This document shows positions 2,268 through 11,015 of a stretch of DNA of 64,000 bases, piece by piece. Every line of letters starts with the position of its first letter. Position 1 is the first letter of the stretch. This DNA is from Agarivorans albus. GTDB lineage: Bacteria > Pseudomonadota > Gammaproteobacteria > Enterobacterales > Celerinatantimonadaceae. The notes beneath the pieces are model-generated. The model was not told the origin of the DNA, ran no database searches, and saw only the letters and a program-made list of their open reading frames with translations. The position numbers were made by a program, and so were the translations under genes. The stretch spans positions 1,057,501-1,121,500 of the forward strand of contig NZ_AP023032.1 in assembly GCF_019670105.1 (NCBI RefSeq). Reading direction: 5' to 3'.

Positions 2268-2299
2268 AGCCAAGTTGCAGTTAGCGCAGCTTGGCTTTA
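2268..2299 (+). terminator. Terminator-like hairpin after the DUF1499 gene
   Basis: AGCCAAGTTGC (2268-2278) pairs with GCAGCTTGGCT (2286-2296) with one G-T pair and a 7-base loop, followed by only a short T stretch. The TTG at 2291, the first possible start of the next frame, lies inside this hairpin, which argues for a later start of that gene. Confidence 0.6.
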
Positions 2300-2356
2300 C
2301 CTAATGGACTTTATTGGCTTAGCTTAAGGGTATTCTCATTGGTAGTTGGTGATGCC

Positions 2357-3346
2357 GTGAAAGCATGTCTGTTTAGTCTGTTGATTCTTGTAAGCTGTCA
2401 ATCTCTTGCAAACGAAGTTTCCTCAAAACCCCGTTTTTTGGTGGTTCCCAAAACCGTTACTAATCCCTTTTTTGATGATGTTGAGAAAGGGTGTTTGCAA
2501 GCAGCTGCAGAGCTAGATGTTGAATGTGTGTATATTGGCCCTGAAGAGGCCGATGCACGGTACCAAGACCAAATTATTTCTCAGCAAATTGAGCAAGGGC
2601 TAGACGGTATTTCGGTATCGGTAATAAATTCTCGGGTGCTTACTCACCGCAGTATGCAATTGGCCAAGCAAAATCAAATCCCCGTGGTTACATTTGATTC
2701 TGATTTTTCTGAAAAAGCCTTGGCAGCCGATCCCAAACTACGACATAGCTACATTGGAACCGATAACTTTCAGTTTGGCTTTCAGCTGGGGCGCTTAACC
2801 CAAGCTTTAAAACCGCAAGGAGGCTCGTTTTGCATTATTACCGGACACAAGGGCGCAGCCAATTTGGTGGAACGTATAAGCGGGGTGTATGCCGGCTTAG
2901 GCTTTAATAATAACAGCGGTAAAAGTGATTTATGGGAAGAGCTTAGTCGCTGCCCAATCTATTCCGATGACGAGGCTCAGCGCTCATTAAATAATCTCGA
3001 TAGAATGCTACGTTTACATCAATATGAGCCGAAGTTGCTTGATGTAATTATTACTGTTGGTGCGTGGCCACAAACTTTGGAGTTTAAATACTCAGATGTT
3101 GTGTCGCCGCATAGTGATAGTTTAGCATCAAAGCGTTTATTGCTTATTTTTGGTGACACCCTCGAAGTACAAAAGCGGCTATTAGCCCAAGGCTTAGCAC
3201 ATGGCAATGTTGGTCAGTCGCCTTACGATATGGGCTACCAATCTATTTATACACTGTATAGCATTCACCAAGGTAAAGCGGTAGAACCATTAATACACAC
3301 CAAGCTGGAACGTTGTGTATTTGGTCAAATACCTATGTGCCAGTAA
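2357..3346 (+). CDS. Periplasmic sugar-binding protein (Peripla_BP_4 type), orphan
   Basis: Resembles the ribose/galactose-type periplasmic binding proteins that capture sugars outside the inner membrane. I place the start at GTG 2357, which gives 329 residues opening with a clean signal peptide (MKACLFSLLILVSCQSLANE); the open frame extends upstream to TTG 2291, but that would begin inside a hairpin and mask the signal. After the signal come the features of the fold: a VVPKTVTNPFFDDVEKGC strand-helix start, a GISVSV motif, VVTFDSD and YIGTDN. No ABC permease or ATPase gene adjoins it, so it may feed a sensor kinase or a distant transporter. It precedes an AraC regulator and an amylase; whether its ligand is a maltodextrin is inference. 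The RBS is weak, so the exact start is uncertain. Confidence 0.75.
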   Translation: MKACLFSLLILVSCQSLANEVSSKPRFLVVPKTVTNPFFDDVEKGCLQAAAELDVECVYIGPEEADARYQDQIISQQIEQGLDGISVSVINSRVLTHRSMQLAKQNQIPVVTFDSDFSEKALAADPKLRHSYIGTDNFQFGFQLGRLTQALKPQGGSFCIITGHKGAANLVERISGVYAGLGFNNNSGKSDLWEELSRCPIYSDDEAQRSLNNLDRMLRLHQYEPKLLDVIITVGAWPQTLEFKYSDVVSPHSDSLASKRLLLIFGDTLEVQKRLLAQGLAHGNVGQSPYDMGYQSIYTLYSIHQGKAVEPLIHTKLERCVFGQIPMCQ

Positions 3347-3424: not shown

Positions 3425-4849
3425 TTGAATCAAGCTCCAGTCATTTCTGCCTTAGCCAAAAAACTTGGTCATTCCCACTTGCAAGTAACGGGTGAATACT
3501 GGCACTTGGCCGATGTATTGTGTTTGCAATCGATGTTGTTGCTGCATGCTCCTTCACTAAAAGAGGGCTTGGTGTGGTGGAGTAAAAGCCTCTCTCTGTT
3601 TGATAGAAGTGTTTATGTTGAGGTGAGCGACGATAAGCAAGGTTTAACCCTAAGCTTACAAACCCGTGACTCACAAGTGTTACCTGCTTGGAGTGAACTA
3701 CTGTTAGATAACCTGTATCAGCAGCTGCAGCAATTCAACAATCCACTGATTACCTGCTATTTTAGTGGTACACGTTTGCAGGTGGCTGCTAAAGCGCTTC
3801 CGCTTAGCTTACAGGCTAAATCGGCGAGCCACAGTTTTGCTAAAAAAGTATATTCACTACTATTGCATCAATCGATTGAATCGCCAGACTTACAGTTGCA
3901 ACTAAAACGCTCTATTCAACGTTCACTTGATAAGCCACTAAACCTAGAGCTTGTGGCTAAAAAAATTGGTTTGTCGACGCGTACTTTGCAGCGGCGTTTA
4001 GCCGAGAAGCAGCTTAATTTCTCTCAACTGGTTGAAGATGAGAAGAAGACTTTGGCGCTAAATTTGTTAGCCGATACCCAGTTGCCTATTTCTAATATTG
4101 GCTTGCGTTTAGGTTATGACGACCCCTCTAATTTTCACCGCTCATTTCGTCGCAGGTTTAAGTTTACCCCTAGTTTTTATCGCCAGCGTTGTGTGCAAAA
4201 TCGCAGTCAATTAAGAGCGCAGCCAGTACGTTTACATTATGCGCGTGGACCCATAGGCGAGGCCGAGGAGTTACATACTCAAGAAGGTCAAGTTTGGTTA
4301 GAAGTGGATAACATTGCCTTCGAAAAAGTAGTGACCGTTGAGTGTAAAGACAGGGATGGCATATGGCGCCATTACCCGGCATTTTTTGCCGATTTTTTAA
4401 GTGATGGCACCGAGCTTTGGTCTACCGCCAACCTGCCGGTTGCTCACCCCTTATGTTTTCGTCTGCGTTATGAAGTAGATGGAGAAAGCTATGTGGATGA
4501 TAACCAACAGCGGGATTACTTAGTCAGTGAGCGTTTGCTACTAGGGACTCCGGCCTATATCGTGCCCACTCTTAGCATTATTAAAACCGGTTTTGCTTAC
4601 CAGTTGTTTATTGAGCTTGCTTGCCAATTAGAGCAGGTCAGCAAAATACTTTGTTATCTGGGAGAGCATTCTCAGCCGCTGGCGCTGCAGCAAGTGAGCA
4701 GTAATAAACAATACAGTATTTGGACCTTATCCAGCCCTTTTCCTGCGCTCGCCGAGCATTGCCGTTTTAGAGTATTTGACCAACACGATAACGAATTAGC
4801 TGAGCAGCACTACCCGCAGCGCTATCAATTTGTTCCTCCATTGCTATAA
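3425..4849 (+). CDS. AraC-family regulator fused to tandem CBM21-like glucan-binding domains
   Basis: A 474-residue fusion. Residues 1-155 look like a divergent N-terminal sensor region; 160-255 form an AraC DNA-binding domain with two helix-turn-helices (LVAKKIGLSTRTLQRRLAEK, then the LRLGYDDPSNFHRSFRRRF motif). Beyond it, residues 288-367 match the CBM21 starch/glycogen-binding pattern: VDNIAFEKVVTV, a tryptophan/tyrosine-containing middle, and FRLRYEVDGESYVDDN ending QQRDY, where family members have NLAFEK..V and YWDNN..NY. Residues 375-468 appear to repeat the same sandwich in degenerate form. There is no signal peptide. The start is a TTG at 3425 without a clear RBS, but an in-frame stop at 3413-3415 precludes a longer protein. 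The next gene is a GH13 amylase on the same strand, the obvious candidate target. CBM21 assignment is by eye and is the point to test. Confidence 0.75.
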   Translation: MNQAPVISALAKKLGHSHLQVTGEYWHLADVLCLQSMLLLHAPSLKEGLVWWSKSLSLFDRSVYVEVSDDKQGLTLSLQTRDSQVLPAWSELLLDNLYQQLQQFNNPLITCYFSGTRLQVAAKALPLSLQAKSASHSFAKKVYSLLLHQSIESPDLQLQLKRSIQRSLDKPLNLELVAKKIGLSTRTLQRRLAEKQLNFSQLVEDEKKTLALNLLADTQLPISNIGLRLGYDDPSNFHRSFRRRFKFTPSFYRQRCVQNRSQLRAQPVRLHYARGPIGEAEELHTQEGQVWLEVDNIAFEKVVTVECKDRDGIWRHYPAFFADFLSDGTELWSTANLPVAHPLCFRLRYEVDGESYVDDNQQRDYLVSERLLLGTPAYIVPTLSIIKTGFAYQLFIELACQLEQVSKILCYLGEHSQPLALQQVSSNKQYSIWTLSSPFPALAEHCRFRVFDQHDNELAEQHYPQRYQFVPPLL

Positions 4850-5006
4850 GCCATAAGCCATAAGCTTACTCTTCAGAAATAGCTACTAAGTTCACAGAAT
4901 GCTTTAGCTGGCATGCTGCTGCATATTATTTGGCGCCAAGTGACACTACGCGCCATGGGTGTCTGGCTTATTGTTCTCCGCAAGATAACTCATAAAGGAA
5001 TGAAAT

Positions 5007-7661
5007 ATGTTGCGGGGAAGAAATAACATACTAAAACCATTGAATATAGTGGCATTATCAGTTGCGGTGGCGTTAAGTGGCTGTAATTCCGATGAACAGC
5101 AGAGTGAAACTACCGGAAGTTATGTGGCATCACCGGAATGGCAAGATCAAATTATCTACTTTTTAATGATTGATCGCTTTAACAATGGCGATCCTAGTTT
5201 GAGCGATCAAGGGCAGGGGGAGTTTGACCCAAGTTCAGACAAAAAATTTAGTGGTGGTGACTTAGTAGGCATAGCCGACAAGCTAGATTACATTCAACAG
5301 CTTGGTGCCACATCGATTTGGCTAACGCCACCAGTTGCTAACCAGTGGTGGGATAATGAGCAAAATTATGGTGGTTACCATGGCTACTGGGCGAGAGATT
5401 TTCAAAAAGTTGATGAGCACTTTGGTGATTTGACCAGCTACCAAGATTTAGCGCGAGAAATCCACGGCCGCAATATGTACCTCATTCAAGATATTGTGAC
5501 TAACCATGTAGGAAACTATTTCACTTATGATCAACCTTGGGAATACGACTCAAGCTTGCCATGCCAAGGGTTCCGCTTAATAGATAGCCCCTTAGTTGAA
5601 GGGCAAGAATTACCTTACCCCTTAAACCAAAACAACTGTAATGAAGATGGTTCTGGGATCTACCACTGGACGCCAAGCATTAGCGACCATAACGATCCTA
5701 TTCAGGAGAAAAACTGGCAGCTGTCTGATTTAGATGATTTAAATACCGCTCACCCGGAAGTGCGTGCCTATTTGAAAGAAAGTTATAGAAAATGGATACG
5801 TGAGGTGGGGGTGGATGCTTTTCGTATCGATACCGTCAAGTTTGTAGAGCACGAGTTTTGGACCGACTTTTTACATGCCTACGATGGAGTAATGGCACAA
5901 GCAGAGCAAACAGGGCGGAGCAATTTTCTTACCTTTGGTGAAGTATTCGAGAGCTCAAGTGCTTATAACACCGAAGGTGAGCAAAAAATGCTGAGTTACC
6001 TAGGGGATGCAGATAATAAACAACTAGCCTCTTTACTTAACTTCCCCTTGCAAACCACCATGACACGAGTATTTGCTGCCGGACAACCTACCGACTATCT
6101 ACGGTTCCGTTTAGAAAAAATGATGGAGCTATTTCCTAATCCCTACATTTTGCCCAACTTTATCGACAACCACGATATGCCGCGCTTTTTGTCGCAAGCT
6201 AGCCAAGCAGATTTAAAACAAGCGCTAATGACCATGTTAAGCATTCCGGGCATTCCGGTGATTTATCAAGGCACTGAACAAGCAATGAGTGCGAGTCGAG
6301 ACGCGATGTTTGAGGGAGGCTATCGCGAAGATGGTGAGTCGCTCGACTCCTTCGACAGCGGCAGCGAGATGTATTTGTTTATACAGCAATTAGCGACGCT
6401 ACGTAGTAATAATCCTGTGATGACGCGTGGAGATATTGAGGTGTTGGCTAGCGACAAGTCGGGTGCCGGTGTATTTGCATTTACTCGTCAGTTAGCGGAT
6501 CAAGAAGTTCTAGTAATAATGAATACCGCTAATCAACCCATGCTGTTAAACAGGTTGGATCTAGACCAAGCAGAAGGCACGGTATTTGAACAGCAAATTC
6601 AAGCTAATTGGATACAAGCACCAGCGGGTTTAGTGGCTGATGCAAACGGTGAAGTAAGTGTTGAACTGCCAGCAAAAGCCGCGGTGTTGTATTTTAAAAC
6701 GAATACTATTGCAGAAGTAGATACTGCTAATTTGGGCATCAGCCTAGATGAAGATTGGACAAACCGAGTGATTAGCGCTGATACCCAGATAACTGGCCGC
6801 GCTCAAGCAAATGCTCAATTGCAATTGGTGGTGAACGGAAACTTAGCCACAGCAACAGACATACAAGTTGATTCGCAAGGGCAGTGGTCGGCCATGTTAT
6901 CAACTCGACATTTCGCGATTGGTGAGCAGCAGCATCGTTTTGCTATCTATTCACCCGATGAAAAAGCCGGTTTAGCCGACGTGCATTTCACTTCAGATTT
7001 AGCTTGGTCTGATACACCTGATCTAAGCATTGATGATAGCAACGATGTGCAAGAAGGAACGGGTGGTCCTAATGGCAGTTACTCGTTGCCAGGTGACCCT
7101 AGCTTTGACAAGGTAAACAGCCAGCTAGCAATTAACCAAGCTGAAGTGTACTCCGTAGGAAGTAACATTCGACTTAAACTCACCATGGATAAACTCACCG
7201 ATACTTGGTTGCCACCAAATGGCTTCGACCACGTAGGTTTTACCGTGTTTATTGATTTACCCGAAGACCAAGGGCCTAGCGCAACCGTTCTACCAAAAAT
7301 TAATGCCAACATGCCTAGTGGTACTTGGAGCCGAAATGCGGTGATATTTGGCTGGCAAAGCTCTATTTATAACGCTCAAGGTGCCGATGCGGATAATTGG
7401 GGGGAAGCAGTAACACCAGCACCAAAAGTGACCGTAGATAAGGCTCAGCAAGCTATCTATCTTGACTTTGCAAGTGATTCTCTTGGTAGACCAAATAGTT
7501 TAGACGGTATCCGTTTTTACCTTTCTACCTGGGACCTAGATGGTTTGTCTGCTGTTTATAGGCCACTTGCTGAAGATGCTGGCCCGTGGAATTTTTCTGG
7601 TGGCGAGGCTGACCAAGAAAAGATTTGGGATGAGTTGTCTATTATCACTCTTAGTGAATAA
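5007..7661 (+). CDS. GH13 alpha-amylase-type lipoprotein with glucodextranase-like C-terminal domain
   Basis: An 884-residue secreted alpha-glucan hydrolase. The signal peptide ends in a lipobox (LSGC, Cys26), so the enzyme is probably lipid-anchored in the outer membrane. The GH13 barrel spans about residues 41-470, with conserved regions I (DIVTNH, 162-167), II (FRIDTVK, nucleophile Asp275), III (FGEVFE, acid/base Glu312) and IV (FIDNHD, Asp390). A beta domain follows to about 570, then an Ig-like stretch to about 660, then a terminal module (about 670-884) resembling the C-terminal domain of glucodextranase (PF09985-like: SYSLPGDPSF, then LTMDKLTDTW, PPNGFD, FTVFIDLPE). RBS AAAGGA precedes ATG 5007. 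The upstream AraC/CBM21 regulator is likely its controller (inference). Substrate may be starch, glycogen or a cyclodextrin-like glucan; exact specificity cannot be read. Confidence 0.88.
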   Translation: MLRGRNNILKPLNIVALSVAVALSGCNSDEQQSETTGSYVASPEWQDQIIYFLMIDRFNNGDPSLSDQGQGEFDPSSDKKFSGGDLVGIADKLDYIQQLGATSIWLTPPVANQWWDNEQNYGGYHGYWARDFQKVDEHFGDLTSYQDLAREIHGRNMYLIQDIVTNHVGNYFTYDQPWEYDSSLPCQGFRLIDSPLVEGQELPYPLNQNNCNEDGSGIYHWTPSISDHNDPIQEKNWQLSDLDDLNTAHPEVRAYLKESYRKWIREVGVDAFRIDTVKFVEHEFWTDFLHAYDGVMAQAEQTGRSNFLTFGEVFESSSAYNTEGEQKMLSYLGDADNKQLASLLNFPLQTTMTRVFAAGQPTDYLRFRLEKMMELFPNPYILPNFIDNHDMPRFLSQASQADLKQALMTMLSIPGIPVIYQGTEQAMSASRDAMFEGGYREDGESLDSFDSGSEMYLFIQQLATLRSNNPVMTRGDIEVLASDKSGAGVFAFTRQLADQEVLVIMNTANQPMLLNRLDLDQAEGTVFEQQIQANWIQAPAGLVADANGEVSVELPAKAAVLYFKTNTIAEVDTANLGISLDEDWTNRVISADTQITGRAQANAQLQLVVNGNLATATDIQVDSQGQWSAMLSTRHFAIGEQQHRFAIYSPDEKAGLADVHFTSDLAWSDTPDLSIDDSNDVQEGTGGPNGSYSLPGDPSFDKVNSQLAINQAEVYSVGSNIRLKLTMDKLTDTWLPPNGFDHVGFTVFIDLPEDQGPSATVLPKINANMPSGTWSRNAVIFGWQSSIYNAQGADADNWGEAVTPAPKVTVDKAQQAIYLDFASDSLGRPNSLDGIRFYLSTWDLDGLSAVYRPLAEDAGPWNFSGGEADQEKIWDELSIITLSE

Positions 7662-8582: not shown

Positions 8583-8834
8583 ATCCGCTAATAGCAATAT
8601 GCCGGGGCTTTAGTTCCGGCAGTCTCACTGATAGCCAAAATATTCTTTAGATTTAAAATAATACAATTAGTCAATGGCTGGTTTTAAATTTTGCCTAAAA
8701 CTAGATCTGTATTGATGTATTTCGTGAAATCACTATGAAACCACTATTCGTTGAGTTATTTCTCTGACTATTTATCTATTGTTTATTTTGTTAATAGTTT
8801 TATTTGTCATTAATTGAAAAGGAGTGTCACCGAT
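8583..8834. other. Intergenic region before the mannanase gene
   Basis: About 250 AT-rich bases. A short hairpin, TGCCGG/CCGGCA (8600-8605 and 8616-8621), lies just after the carbonic anhydrase stop but has no T run. The mannanase promoter must lie here; I could not choose a convincing -35/-10 pair. Confidence 0.4.
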
Positions 8835-10394
8835 ATGAACATCAGTACTTTAGAAAAACTCAACAATAGTAAGCGTGTTAAACCTATTTCTCGATTAAGC
8901 CTTAGTGTAGCGGCGGGCTTGTTGGCCTTGTCTAGTTTGCCTGCAGTGGCAGGTTTTAGTACCTCAGGTACTCAACTGCTAGACGCTAACGGGCATGAGG
9001 TCATTATGCGCGGGGTAAATCATGCTCACGCTTGGTATAACTATCGCCAAGGCGCGTTTAGAGACATTGCAGAAGCTGGCGCAAATACTGTGAGGGTGGT
9101 ACTAAGTGATGGTCAGCAGTTCGCTAAAAACGATGCAGAAGACGTGGCCAAAGTGGTTAAGATGTGTAAGTTAAATCGCTTAGTCTGTGTGCTTGAAGTG
9201 CATGACGTCACAGGATCAGGTGAAAAAGCTGAGGCTGGCGATTTACAAACCACAGCTGCTTATTGGGTGGAACTTGCAGATGTGCTTAAGGGTGAAGAAG
9301 ACTATGTGATCATCAACATTGCTAACGAACCCTTTGGTAACAATGTACCTGCAGAAACCTATGTAAATGAACATAAAAAAGCGATAACAACGCTACGAGA
9401 TGCTGGCTTTACCCACACCATAATGATTGATGCAGCAAACTGGGGGCAAGATTGGCAGGAGATTATGTTAGACAATGCCACAGAGGTTGCTTCTGCAGAT
9501 TCGTTAAACAACATTATGTTTAGTGTGCATATGTACCAGGTTTACCAAAACCGCGAGAAGATCGAGTCCTACGTATCTACCTTTTTGAGCCGCCACAACA
9601 TGCCACTAATCGTGGGTGAGTTTGGCATGGATCATCAAGGGCAAGATGTGGATGAAGATGCTATTTTGGCGGTGGCCGAAGAATATAAAATTGGCTACTT
9701 AGGTTGGTCTTGGTCTGGTAATACAGCGCCGGGTACATTTGAACTGGATATGACGGTTAACTTCGATGCCAGCAAACTCACTACTTGGGGCAAACGCCTA
9801 ATCAACGGCGAAAATGGTATTAAACAAACCTCGGTTCTTGCTTCTGTATTTGATGGCCAAGAGCTGCCGGTTGTTCAACAGTGTGATTTTTACGGCACCA
9901 TTGTGCCTATTTGTTTATACGAAGATGCCGGACACTCTCAAGAAAATGGCGGTAACTGTGTGGGTTACACGATGTGTAGCGAAATACCTGCGGGCTCGGG
10001 TGGCATAGTGGATGGTCCTGTTGACCCAACAGACCCAACAGACCCAACAGACCCAACAGACCCAACAGACCCAACGGACCCAACGGATCCTGTTGATCCA
10101 AATGCTGCTTGTAAACACGTAGTGGTTAACTCGTGGGAAGGTGGTTTCCAAGGGGCGGTGGTTATCACTAATACTGGCAGCGAACCCATCAATACTTGGC
10201 AGGTTAGCTGGGCGTATAGTGATGGTTCAAGCATTAGTAGCTCTTGGAATGCAGAGTTAAATTCTGCCGAGGGATACACCGCTTCTAACCTTGCTTGGAA
10301 TAGCACTGTTGCTGCTGGGCAGTCAGTTGAATTTGGCTTTACCGGAACCGGCGCGGGCGTGGCTACCGCGGTAACCGGTGGCGTTTGCCAATAG
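8835..10394 (+). CDS. GH5 endo-beta-1,4-mannanase with CBM10-like and CBM2 modules
   Basis: A 519-residue secreted enzyme cutting beta-1,4-mannan. ATG 8835 has AAAAGGAG 10 bases upstream and is preferred to the in-frame TTG at 8814. A long signal peptide ends near LPAVAG (residue 40). The GH5 domain (about 43-340) has RGVNHAHAWY, ANTVRVVLSDG, NIANEPFG (acid/base Glu165) and IVGEFGMDH (nucleophile Glu262), the pattern of bacterial GH5 subfamily 8 mannanases rather than cellulases. Residues 349-382 form a cysteine-rich CBM10-like module (CDFYG to CSEIP). An acidic TDP-repeat linker (about 397-421) leads to a CBM2 cellulose-binding domain (425-518) ending in VCQ. The two cellulose-binding modules suggest action on mannan held in plant or algal walls. 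It appears monocistronic, with a terminator at 10414-10441. Confidence 0.92.
   Translation: MNISTLEKLNNSKRVKPISRLSLSVAAGLLALSSLPAVAGFSTSGTQLLDANGHEVIMRGVNHAHAWYNYRQGAFRDIAEAGANTVRVVLSDGQQFAKNDAEDVAKVVKMCKLNRLVCVLEVHDVTGSGEKAEAGDLQTTAAYWVELADVLKGEEDYVIINIANEPFGNNVPAETYVNEHKKAITTLRDAGFTHTIMIDAANWGQDWQEIMLDNATEVASADSLNNIMFSVHMYQVYQNREKIESYVSTFLSRHNMPLIVGEFGMDHQGQDVDEDAILAVAEEYKIGYLGWSWSGNTAPGTFELDMTVNFDASKLTTWGKRLINGENGIKQTSVLASVFDGQELPVVQQCDFYGTIVPICLYEDAGHSQENGGNCVGYTMCSEIPAGSGGIVDGPVDPTDPTDPTDPTDPTDPTDPTDPVDPNAACKHVVVNSWEGGFQGAVVITNTGSEPINTWQVSWAYSDGSSISSSWNAELNSAEGYTASNLAWNSTVAAGQSVEFGFTGTGAGVATAVTGGVCQ
10023..10085 (+). repeat. Seven 9-bp tandem repeats encoding the TDP linker
   Basis: Seven consecutive copies of GACCCAACA, the last two with a final G instead of A, encode the Thr-Asp-Pro linker of the mannanase. 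Near-identity at DNA level, not only at protein level, points to slippage or recombination and hence to copy-number variation between strains. Confidence 0.95.
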
Positions 10395-10413
10395 TTGCCG
10401 TTATTTAAGTAAT

Positions 10414-10441
10414 AAAAGCCATGTTATGCATGGCTTTTTTC
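10414..10441. terminator. Bidirectional terminator between mannanase and yajL genes
   Basis: Left arm 10414-10423 (AAAAGCCATG) pairs with CATGGCTTTT (10429-10438) across a 5-base loop, followed by T residues. The A run on the left gives a T tract on the minus strand as well, so it can serve both converging genes. Confidence 0.9.
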
Positions 10442-10454
10442 CTTAAGTTTGGAT

Positions 10455-11015
10455 TTAAGCAAGCACCATAGGAGCCGCAACTTGGTCGGCGCTATCTTGA
10501 TCTTTTAGTTGAGCAATTAAGGCTAGGCTGAATTCAATGGCTGTGCCGGGGCCTTGGCTAGTGATGAGCTTATGGGGTTGATCAACCACTACTCTATCTA
10601 CACTTAATTGGTTTTGCGGTAGCTGCTGTTGAAAGCCTGGGTGACAAGTTACCGCAGCATCACCCAGTAAATTATGCTCTGCTAGTACTACAGCAGGAGC
10701 TGCGCAAATTGCGGCTAACCATTGCTTCGCTTTGCGTTGCTTAAGCATGGCAATGAGTGATTCACAGTCTCGGAAAGCCTCACTACCGGGAACACCACCG
10801 GGTAATACCAACATGTCGTAGTCTGCTGCGTCTATTTCACTAATGTGTATATCGGCCATCAGCTTTACGCCGCGAGAGGCAACAATATCTAAGCGTTTGT
10901 TGGCTTCTATACTCACTACGTCTACCATAATCTCGGCTCGGCGTAATACATCGATAATGCTTACGGCTTCAATCTCTTCACTGCCAGAGGCTATAGCTAC
11001 CATCACTTTAGTCAT
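10455..11015 (-). CDS. yajL: DJ-1/PfpI family protein YajL
   Basis: A 186-residue cytoplasmic DJ-1-type protein, linked in E. coli to protection against thiol and dicarbonyl damage (formerly called ThiJ). Family features: an N-terminal strand with conserved Glu15/16 (GSEEIEA), VLPGGVPGSE, and the nucleophilic cysteine in AAICAAPA (Cys104). It overlaps the end of panE by 8 bp, so the two form an operon, and yajQ diverges from panE; yajL-panE beside divergent yajQ is the arrangement in E. coli. Orthology to YajL rather than another DJ-1 paralogue rests on this synteny plus similarity. Confidence 0.88.
   Translation of the reverse strand: MTKVMVAIASGSEEIEAVSIIDVLRRAEIMVDVVSIEANKRLDIVASRGVKLMADIHISEIDAADYDMLVLPGGVPGSEAFRDCESLIAMLKQRKAKQWLAAICAAPAVVLAEHNLLGDAAVTCHPGFQQQLPQNQLSVDRVVVDQPHKLITSQGPGTAIEFSLALIAQLKDQDSADQVAAPMVLA

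Follow-up and report, generated by a model that had tools for sequence, protein, structure and literature searches.

An AraC-type regulator joined to a CBM21 module and encoded beside a GH13 alpha-amylase gene in Agarivorans albus: a candidate cytoplasmic sensor of alpha-glucan

Bacterial starch-use regulators are thought to read small sugars. MalT and the LacI-type maltose regulators switch on alpha-glucan use with maltodextrins, and we know of no polysaccharide-binding module in either. Rob, a member of the AraC/XylS family, has a C-terminal effector-like domain. CBM21 domains of PPP1R3 proteins target glycogen, and CBM21 domains can also act as protein platforms. In the account of bacterial CBM-based sensing drawn on here, the sensing is extracellular: in the RsgI anti-sigma factors of Clostridium thermocellum, which are transmembrane, a polysaccharide-binding module that serves as the sensor outside the cell (CBM3 or CBM42, for example) controls glycoside hydrolase genes, and the signal is passed on by proteolysis (PMC12203970). 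A literature search, covering few subscription journals, found no CBM21 module on a DNA-binding protein; four papers in the collection searched contain both CBM21 and AraC, naming each once.

Such a protein is encoded in the genome of Agarivorans albus, a marine bacterium. The window, meaning the whole stretch of 64,000 nucleotides analysed, spans positions 1,057,501-1,121,500 of this single-contig 4.79-Mb genome. The regulator gene, its parts and the following gene lie in the window as follows.

3425..4849, + strand: AraC-CBM21 regulator gene, 474 aa, TTG start (listed ORF)
3425..3874, + strand: N-terminal domain, residues 1-150, matching no Pfam family
3902..4198, + strand: AraC-type helix-turn-helix (HTH) domain, residues 160-258 (Pfam HTH_18, HTH_AraC)
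4220..4534, + strand: CBM21 module 1 with its lead-in segment, residues ~266-370 (Pfam, PDB profile, hhalign)
4544..4846, + strand: degenerate CBM21-like module 2, residues 374-474 (hhalign scores weak, yet higher than every one of 60 column shuffles in all three pairings)
5007..7661, + strand: GH13 alpha-amylase with a lipoprotein-like start and a Glucodextran_C domain, presumed target (Pfam; present in 16/16 loci)

The HTH exceeds the Pfam cut-offs, with HTH_18 at residues 178-255 (E 1.4e-16; 60.9 bits against a cut-off of 33.6) and HTH_AraC at residues 216-254 (E 8.1e-8). Assignment to a named NCBIfam equivalog was rejected: the 25 listed of 33 families all fell below their cut-offs, and their best-matching stretches lay on or near the HTH. 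The N-terminal domain gave no Pfam match and only two hits (E 0.16 and 1.1) in a PDB profile search; it may serve in dimerisation or regulation, and could itself, instead of CBM21, be the true sensor. Orthologues of 473-479 aa were found in three other Agarivorans genomes, and the C-terminal region has a named relative in Agarivorans sp. Toyoura001 (82% identity). A plasmid collection searched with the regulator at E 1e-3 gave no match.

The regulator is predicted to be cytoplasmic because it has a DNA-binding domain. The usual hydropathy threshold for a membrane span is 1.6, and the 19-residue maximum is 1.21 in the window regulator and 0.90-1.56 across 16 regulators, giving no clear span; the measure is weak and separates poorly, because amylase starts peak at 1.02-1.77 and overlap the regulators.

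The original prediction, made from the letters of the DNA, had placed an AraC HTH at residues 160-255 and a CBM21 pattern at 288-367. Pfam, a PDB profile search and hhalign bear out this order, and the motifs quoted for it occur in the translation. With Pfam's own CBM21 profile (CBM_21, PF03370), the match covered residues 293-367 of the window regulator at E 0.0016 and 19.1 bits, under the cut-off of 28.9; three of four relatives scanned reached 20.1, 23.2 and 14.6 bits, all likewise under it, and the fourth (G030) was not listed. A PF03370 search of the same genome returned a secreted CBM21 protein only and missed the regulator gene, and 14 control genomes gave no match. Because the regulator and the relatives scanned fall under the cut-off, and the regulator escapes the genome search, Pfam alone is insufficient for a CBM21 call, and support came from the family-profile PDB search and hhalign. 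Already as a single sequence the regulator had 2djm as the best of 11 PDB hits (E 5.5e-4). A profile of the C-termini of 11 family members gave nine PDB hits, headed by 2djm, the starch-binding domain of Rhizopus glucoamylase (9.6e-7), and followed by PPP1R3C (9.8e-4), PPP1R3B (0.0011) and, in a second entry, PPP1R3C once more (0.0036); all four are CBM21 proteins. Ranked below them, at E 0.077 to 0.83, came an antibody chain, two MarA entries, a glucoamylase and PPP1R3A.

Secreted-type proteins with CBM21 modules, encoded in related genomes, provide the closest comparison. Four of them were scanned with Pfam and all exceed the CBM_21 cut-off, with two CBM_21 stretches in three proteins and one in the other; the protein from the window's own genome has one stretch (1.4e-15). 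In hhalign, module 1 of the regulators aligned with the first module of six secreted proteins over 102 columns with a probability of 99.5% and a score of 123.7 (best of 60 column shuffles, 18.8), and with their second modules with a probability of 95% and a score of 47.6 (best shuffle, 13.9). A profile of the secreted modules, searched against 722 proteins that included 320 shuffled regulators, found the window regulator at E 6.9e-14, while the best real protein outside the two CBM21 groups stood at 0.28 and the best shuffled regulator at 3.5. At the level of sequence profiles, this comparison with the secreted tandem-CBM21 proteins is decisive for assigning module 1 to CBM21. A chance CBM21-like pattern was rejected on the same searches together with the family-profile PDB hits.

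The secreted tandem proteins share with the regulator two modules in the same order and a similar lead-in, and differ from it in a signal-peptide-like N-terminus, in having no HTH (by eye) and in a tryptophan at position 94 of module 1 (6/6). Their mature sequences begin with EVRLKHA and the regulator C-terminus with PVRLHYA; this likeness suggests an origin of the regulator in which a free-standing tandem-CBM21 protein was fused on. Genes for secreted-type CBM21 proteins were seen in L074 (7072-8163), L070 (4344-5441), L066 (8272-9171), L067 (8046-9173), L068 (8779-9510) and L069 (8400-9440). No catalytic domain was noticed in them, and they are possibly cell-surface or released starch binders. 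The one in L067 lies near MalE-like and GH13-like genes (by eye).

The second, degenerate copy that had been proposed at residues 375-468 stands in part. Module 2 scored above the maximum of 60 shuffles in hhalign against module 2 of the secreted proteins (18.8 against 13.7), their module 1 (22.7 against 16.5) and module 1 of the AraC proteins (20.8 against 16.8), but the probabilities across these pairings were just 4-12%. The terminal motif DDN.G..Y is kept in the module 2 region of three relatives (G030, G118 and G248b). Counting against module 2, the two MarA hits of the family profile, which are non-significant (E 0.32 and 0.40), fall on this region, and in the search of 722 proteins the second stretch of the window regulator gained about zero bits. 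These data weakly support a second CBM21-like module.

Ligand-site residues of the R. oryzae starch-binding domain (RoSBD) were mapped onto 16 regulators with MAFFT, and with HMMER for F58. Site II of RoSBD (N29, Y32, K34, F58, Y67, E68) serves mainly soluble ligands, the binding of which is weakened most by Y32A and F58A; W47 of the site I triad (W47, Y83, Y94) contributes to the binding of insoluble starch and has a smaller part in that of soluble ligands (PMC3398936). Three of the six site II residues are kept in the regulators, N29 in 15/16 and K34 and E68 in 16/16; Y32 is replaced by F in 16/16, Y67 is not kept, and F58 is alignment-dependent, falling on F321 by HMMER and on L325 by MAFFT. 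The site II-like residues of the window regulator are N296, F299, K301 and E330. In site I, W47 is kept in 15/16 regulators, and the other two aromatics are lost in all 16: Y83 gives way to R (12), K (3) or T (1), and Y94 to V or I (14), E (1) or S (1). The polar residues N50, N96 and N101 are kept in 0, 7 and 4 of the 16, respectively. The first module of the secreted proteins does not keep the full site I either, Y83 being lost in 6/6 beside the tryptophan at 94. With part of site II kept and two aromatics gone from site I, the residues point, if anything, to a soluble alpha-glucan chain as the ligand of module 1. The retained W47 speaks against a clean split between soluble and insoluble ligands, and N29, K34 and E68, which are also kept in 6/6 secreted modules, may be conserved for structural instead of ligand-related reasons.

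In total, 16 distinct regulator genes were collected from 15 genomes of four families in one order; whole proteins of 11 homologues and the C-termini of all 16 were aligned. Relative to the window protein, module 1 is more identical than the HTH in 15/15 relatives, and the N-terminal domain and module 2 are less identical. The distribution of the fusion is patchy. A search of 394 genomes of the order with the C-terminal profile matched 12; ten of these have the fusion, with 11 genes between them, and the other two (G001 and G004) have a secreted protein only. The fusion occurs in 6/118 genomes of one genus (that of G248, itself included) and in 2/7 genomes of one family (that of G030). Samples of 369 genomes of the class and 299 of the phylum gave no further fusion, the window's own genome being the sole match. 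The loci form clade A, with 13 loci (four from Agarivorans, three from a genus of f11 and six from a genus of f21), and clade B, with three. One genome, G248, has two regulator-amylase pairs, one from each clade (L064 in A, L060 in B). The regulator of G196 (L061, 8438-9958) has an in-frame LQRR repeat run within the HTH region that none of the ten other aligned proteins shows; it may be a repeat expansion or an assembly artefact.

The adjacent GH13 amylase named in the original prediction proved to be a constant companion: in 16/16 loci a GH13 amylase gene of the same orientation directly follows the regulator gene, at a distance of 62 to 343 bp (longest ORFs). In the window amylase, Pfam finds Alpha-amylase at E 1.1e-54 and Glucodextran_C at 2.4e-16, and both domains occur in all five of the 16 amylases that were scanned, the remainder being assigned by similarity to the window GH13 or, for five, by their start. 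Each of nine full-length amylases has a lipoprotein-like [LI][SGT]GC near its start. Across the 16 loci, distances between regulators are correlated with those between amylases (r 0.92; 0/2000 permutations), which shared ancestry alone would also give. Outside the pair, neighbouring genes vary between genera.

Similar GH13 genes also occur without the fusion. Among 388 genomes of the order, 18 match the window GH13 at E 1e-150 or better, namely the ten fusion genomes and eight others, for which the fusion is absent from the search results. Clade B amylases are 42-45% identical to the window GH13 (E 4.7e-232 to 3.5e-206), and the best distant GH13s 38-47% (E 1.4e-204 and weaker); because clade B is hardly closer than these, the division into GH13s with and without the fusion does not come from similarity alone. 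Among the distant GH13 genes that lack the regulator (L090-L097), some have tryptophan-halogenase-like, TonB-receptor-like or CadC-like regulator genes as neighbours (by eye, from ORF starts). Three Agarivorans genomes (G001, G003 and G004) yielded neither the fusion nor the GH13 at the thresholds used.

Two further neighbours were noted. Directly upstream of the regulator, at 2291-3346, the window encodes a periplasmic sugar-binding-type protein (Peripla_BP_4, E 3e-46), which in L073 is split over overlapping ORFs (9984-10487 and 10424-10972). It was rejected as an obligatory partner, being seen beside the fusion in the four Agarivorans loci and not in the other loci listed (by eye, from ORF starts). 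The gene at 8814-10394 encodes a secreted, cellulase-like protein in which a long linker of PTDPTDP repeats precedes a C-terminal region resembling a binding module (by eye).

The junction between the regulator and amylase genes contains a conserved element, with these parts in the window.

4909..4924, + strand: upstream direct-repeat copy (TGGCAT box), candidate activator site 1 (junction alignment)
4930..4947, + strand: downstream copy TTGGCGCCAAGTGACACT, two boxes 10 bp apart, candidate activator site 2 (junction pattern)
4969..4974, + strand: -10-like TATTGT, 22 bp after TGACAC (junction pattern)

The pattern TGRCR-N17-TGGCR-N5-TGACAC-N22-TAYYST is found with unchanged spacing at 13/13 clade A junctions and in 0/26,000 Markov shuffles; it was written after the alignments had been viewed (an earlier form fitted 11/13), and the 13 loci, drawn from three genera, are related to one another in sequence. 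It is absent from the three clade B junctions (0/3) and from the loci of the eight distant GH13 genes without a detected fusion (0/8). Between genera (four pairs), the 18-bp second site is 83% identical against 35-42% for the 5' flank; within Agarivorans (two pairs), the corresponding values are 72-78% and 41-49%. Over its full 66 bp, the element reaches only 50-62% identity in these six pairs. With a degenerate consensus, the window's own genome has one exact match, the downstream copy at 4930-4947, and one match with a single mismatch elsewhere, and a reversed control also gives one. When two mismatches are allowed, the window shows a second, overlapping match on the minus strand, but two matches also occur in 7/100 shuffles. 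Each site has two boxes 10 bp apart, the sites are 22 bp apart, and no -35 box is evident beside the -10-like box (by eye), the second site lying where it would be. AraC-family activators use such geometry, with paired boxes and repeated sites next to the -35 position. The arrangement fits an AraC-type activator touching the polymerase, and the direct repeat is a plausible operator of the regulator.

Taken together, these features make it reasonably probable that the regulator is a cytoplasmic one-component activator which senses soluble alpha-glucan directly and is dedicated to the one GH13 gene downstream. Its central HTH would bind the two direct-repeat sites directly upstream of a poor promoter, and its C-terminal CBM21 module would act as the sensor, gripping soluble alpha-1,4-glucan chains in the cytoplasm, most likely imported malto-oligosaccharides and possibly outer chains of glycogen. 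Binding of glucan would place or free the HTH so that RNA polymerase is recruited, and more of the secreted alpha-amylase would then be made. That glucan is the ligand, that regulation is by activation and that the proteins reside where described is what we infer from sequence.

It is also conceivable, if unlikely, that the regulator is tethered to stored glycogen by its CBM21 modules and that its release when reserves run out activates the amylase gene; the cell would then sense its own glycogen reserve, not incoming food. The glycogen-targeting PPP1R3C and PPP1R3B among the top four family-profile hits suit this reading, tandem modules would suit a polymer, and glycogen synthase is encoded in 15/15 fusion genomes. 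However, glycogen synthase was found in 18/18 genomes tested, including three congeners without the fusion, and because it occurs with and without the regulator alike its presence does not discriminate; module 2 is degenerate, and site I has lost two of its three aromatics. We give a similarly low probability to the wider idea of a transcription factor as a reserve gauge at the promoter, reading polymeric alpha-glucan (the glycogen stored by the cell included) directly by holding on to it or letting go through CBM21. A local activator responding to soluble alpha-glucan is the simplest mechanism, and a sensor of stored glycogen the bolder proposal.

It is distinctly improbable that the CBM21 fold is a structural, dimerisation or protein-contact module that binds no glucan, with any ligand read by the N-terminal domain. 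CBM21 can be a protein platform, the site I triad is mostly gone, and a domain of no recognised kind precedes the HTH in the 11 aligned proteins (the G785 ORF lacks much of it). Against this, module 1 exceeds both the HTH and the N-terminal domain in identity to the window protein in 15/15 comparisons, the soluble-ligand site still has several of its residues, and the neighbour is an alpha-glucan hydrolase. Least probable by far is a repressor or autoregulator with targets elsewhere, amylase adjacency being operon history: activation is a conclusion drawn from sequence and the genome has a further site with one mismatch, but the reversed pattern also gives one match, only 3/16 loci have TGACAC or TGACAT in the 250 bp before the regulator start, and the paired element occurs once in each of the examined loci covering a clade A junction.

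If a cytoplasmic regulator does carry a polysaccharide-binding module, this would be a distinct sensing mode. Regulator, element and amylase would form a compact two-gene unit through which alpha-glucan controls expression, and it would become directly testable whether a bacterial promoter is governed by chain length or by glycogen content. With AraC/XylS one-component regulators the protein shares an HTH over the Pfam cut-offs and tandem direct-repeat candidate sites by the promoter; it differs from them in its central HTH followed by CBM21 modules and in that Pfam lists no arabinose-type sensor domain. With the CBM21 of R. oryzae glucoamylase (2djm) and the PPP1R3 subunits it shares the domain, by profile, and part of site II, whereas here the domain is joined to a DNA-binding domain, Y83 and Y94 are replaced and the second module is degenerate. 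Unlike RsgI, with its transmembrane helix and extracellular CBM, the regulator has its module on the DNA-binding protein itself, and a membrane span is not evident by hydropathy (maximum 1.21, a weak measure). From MalT and the LacI-type regulators it differs in both DNA-binding and sensor domains, and the presumed purpose is common to all of them.
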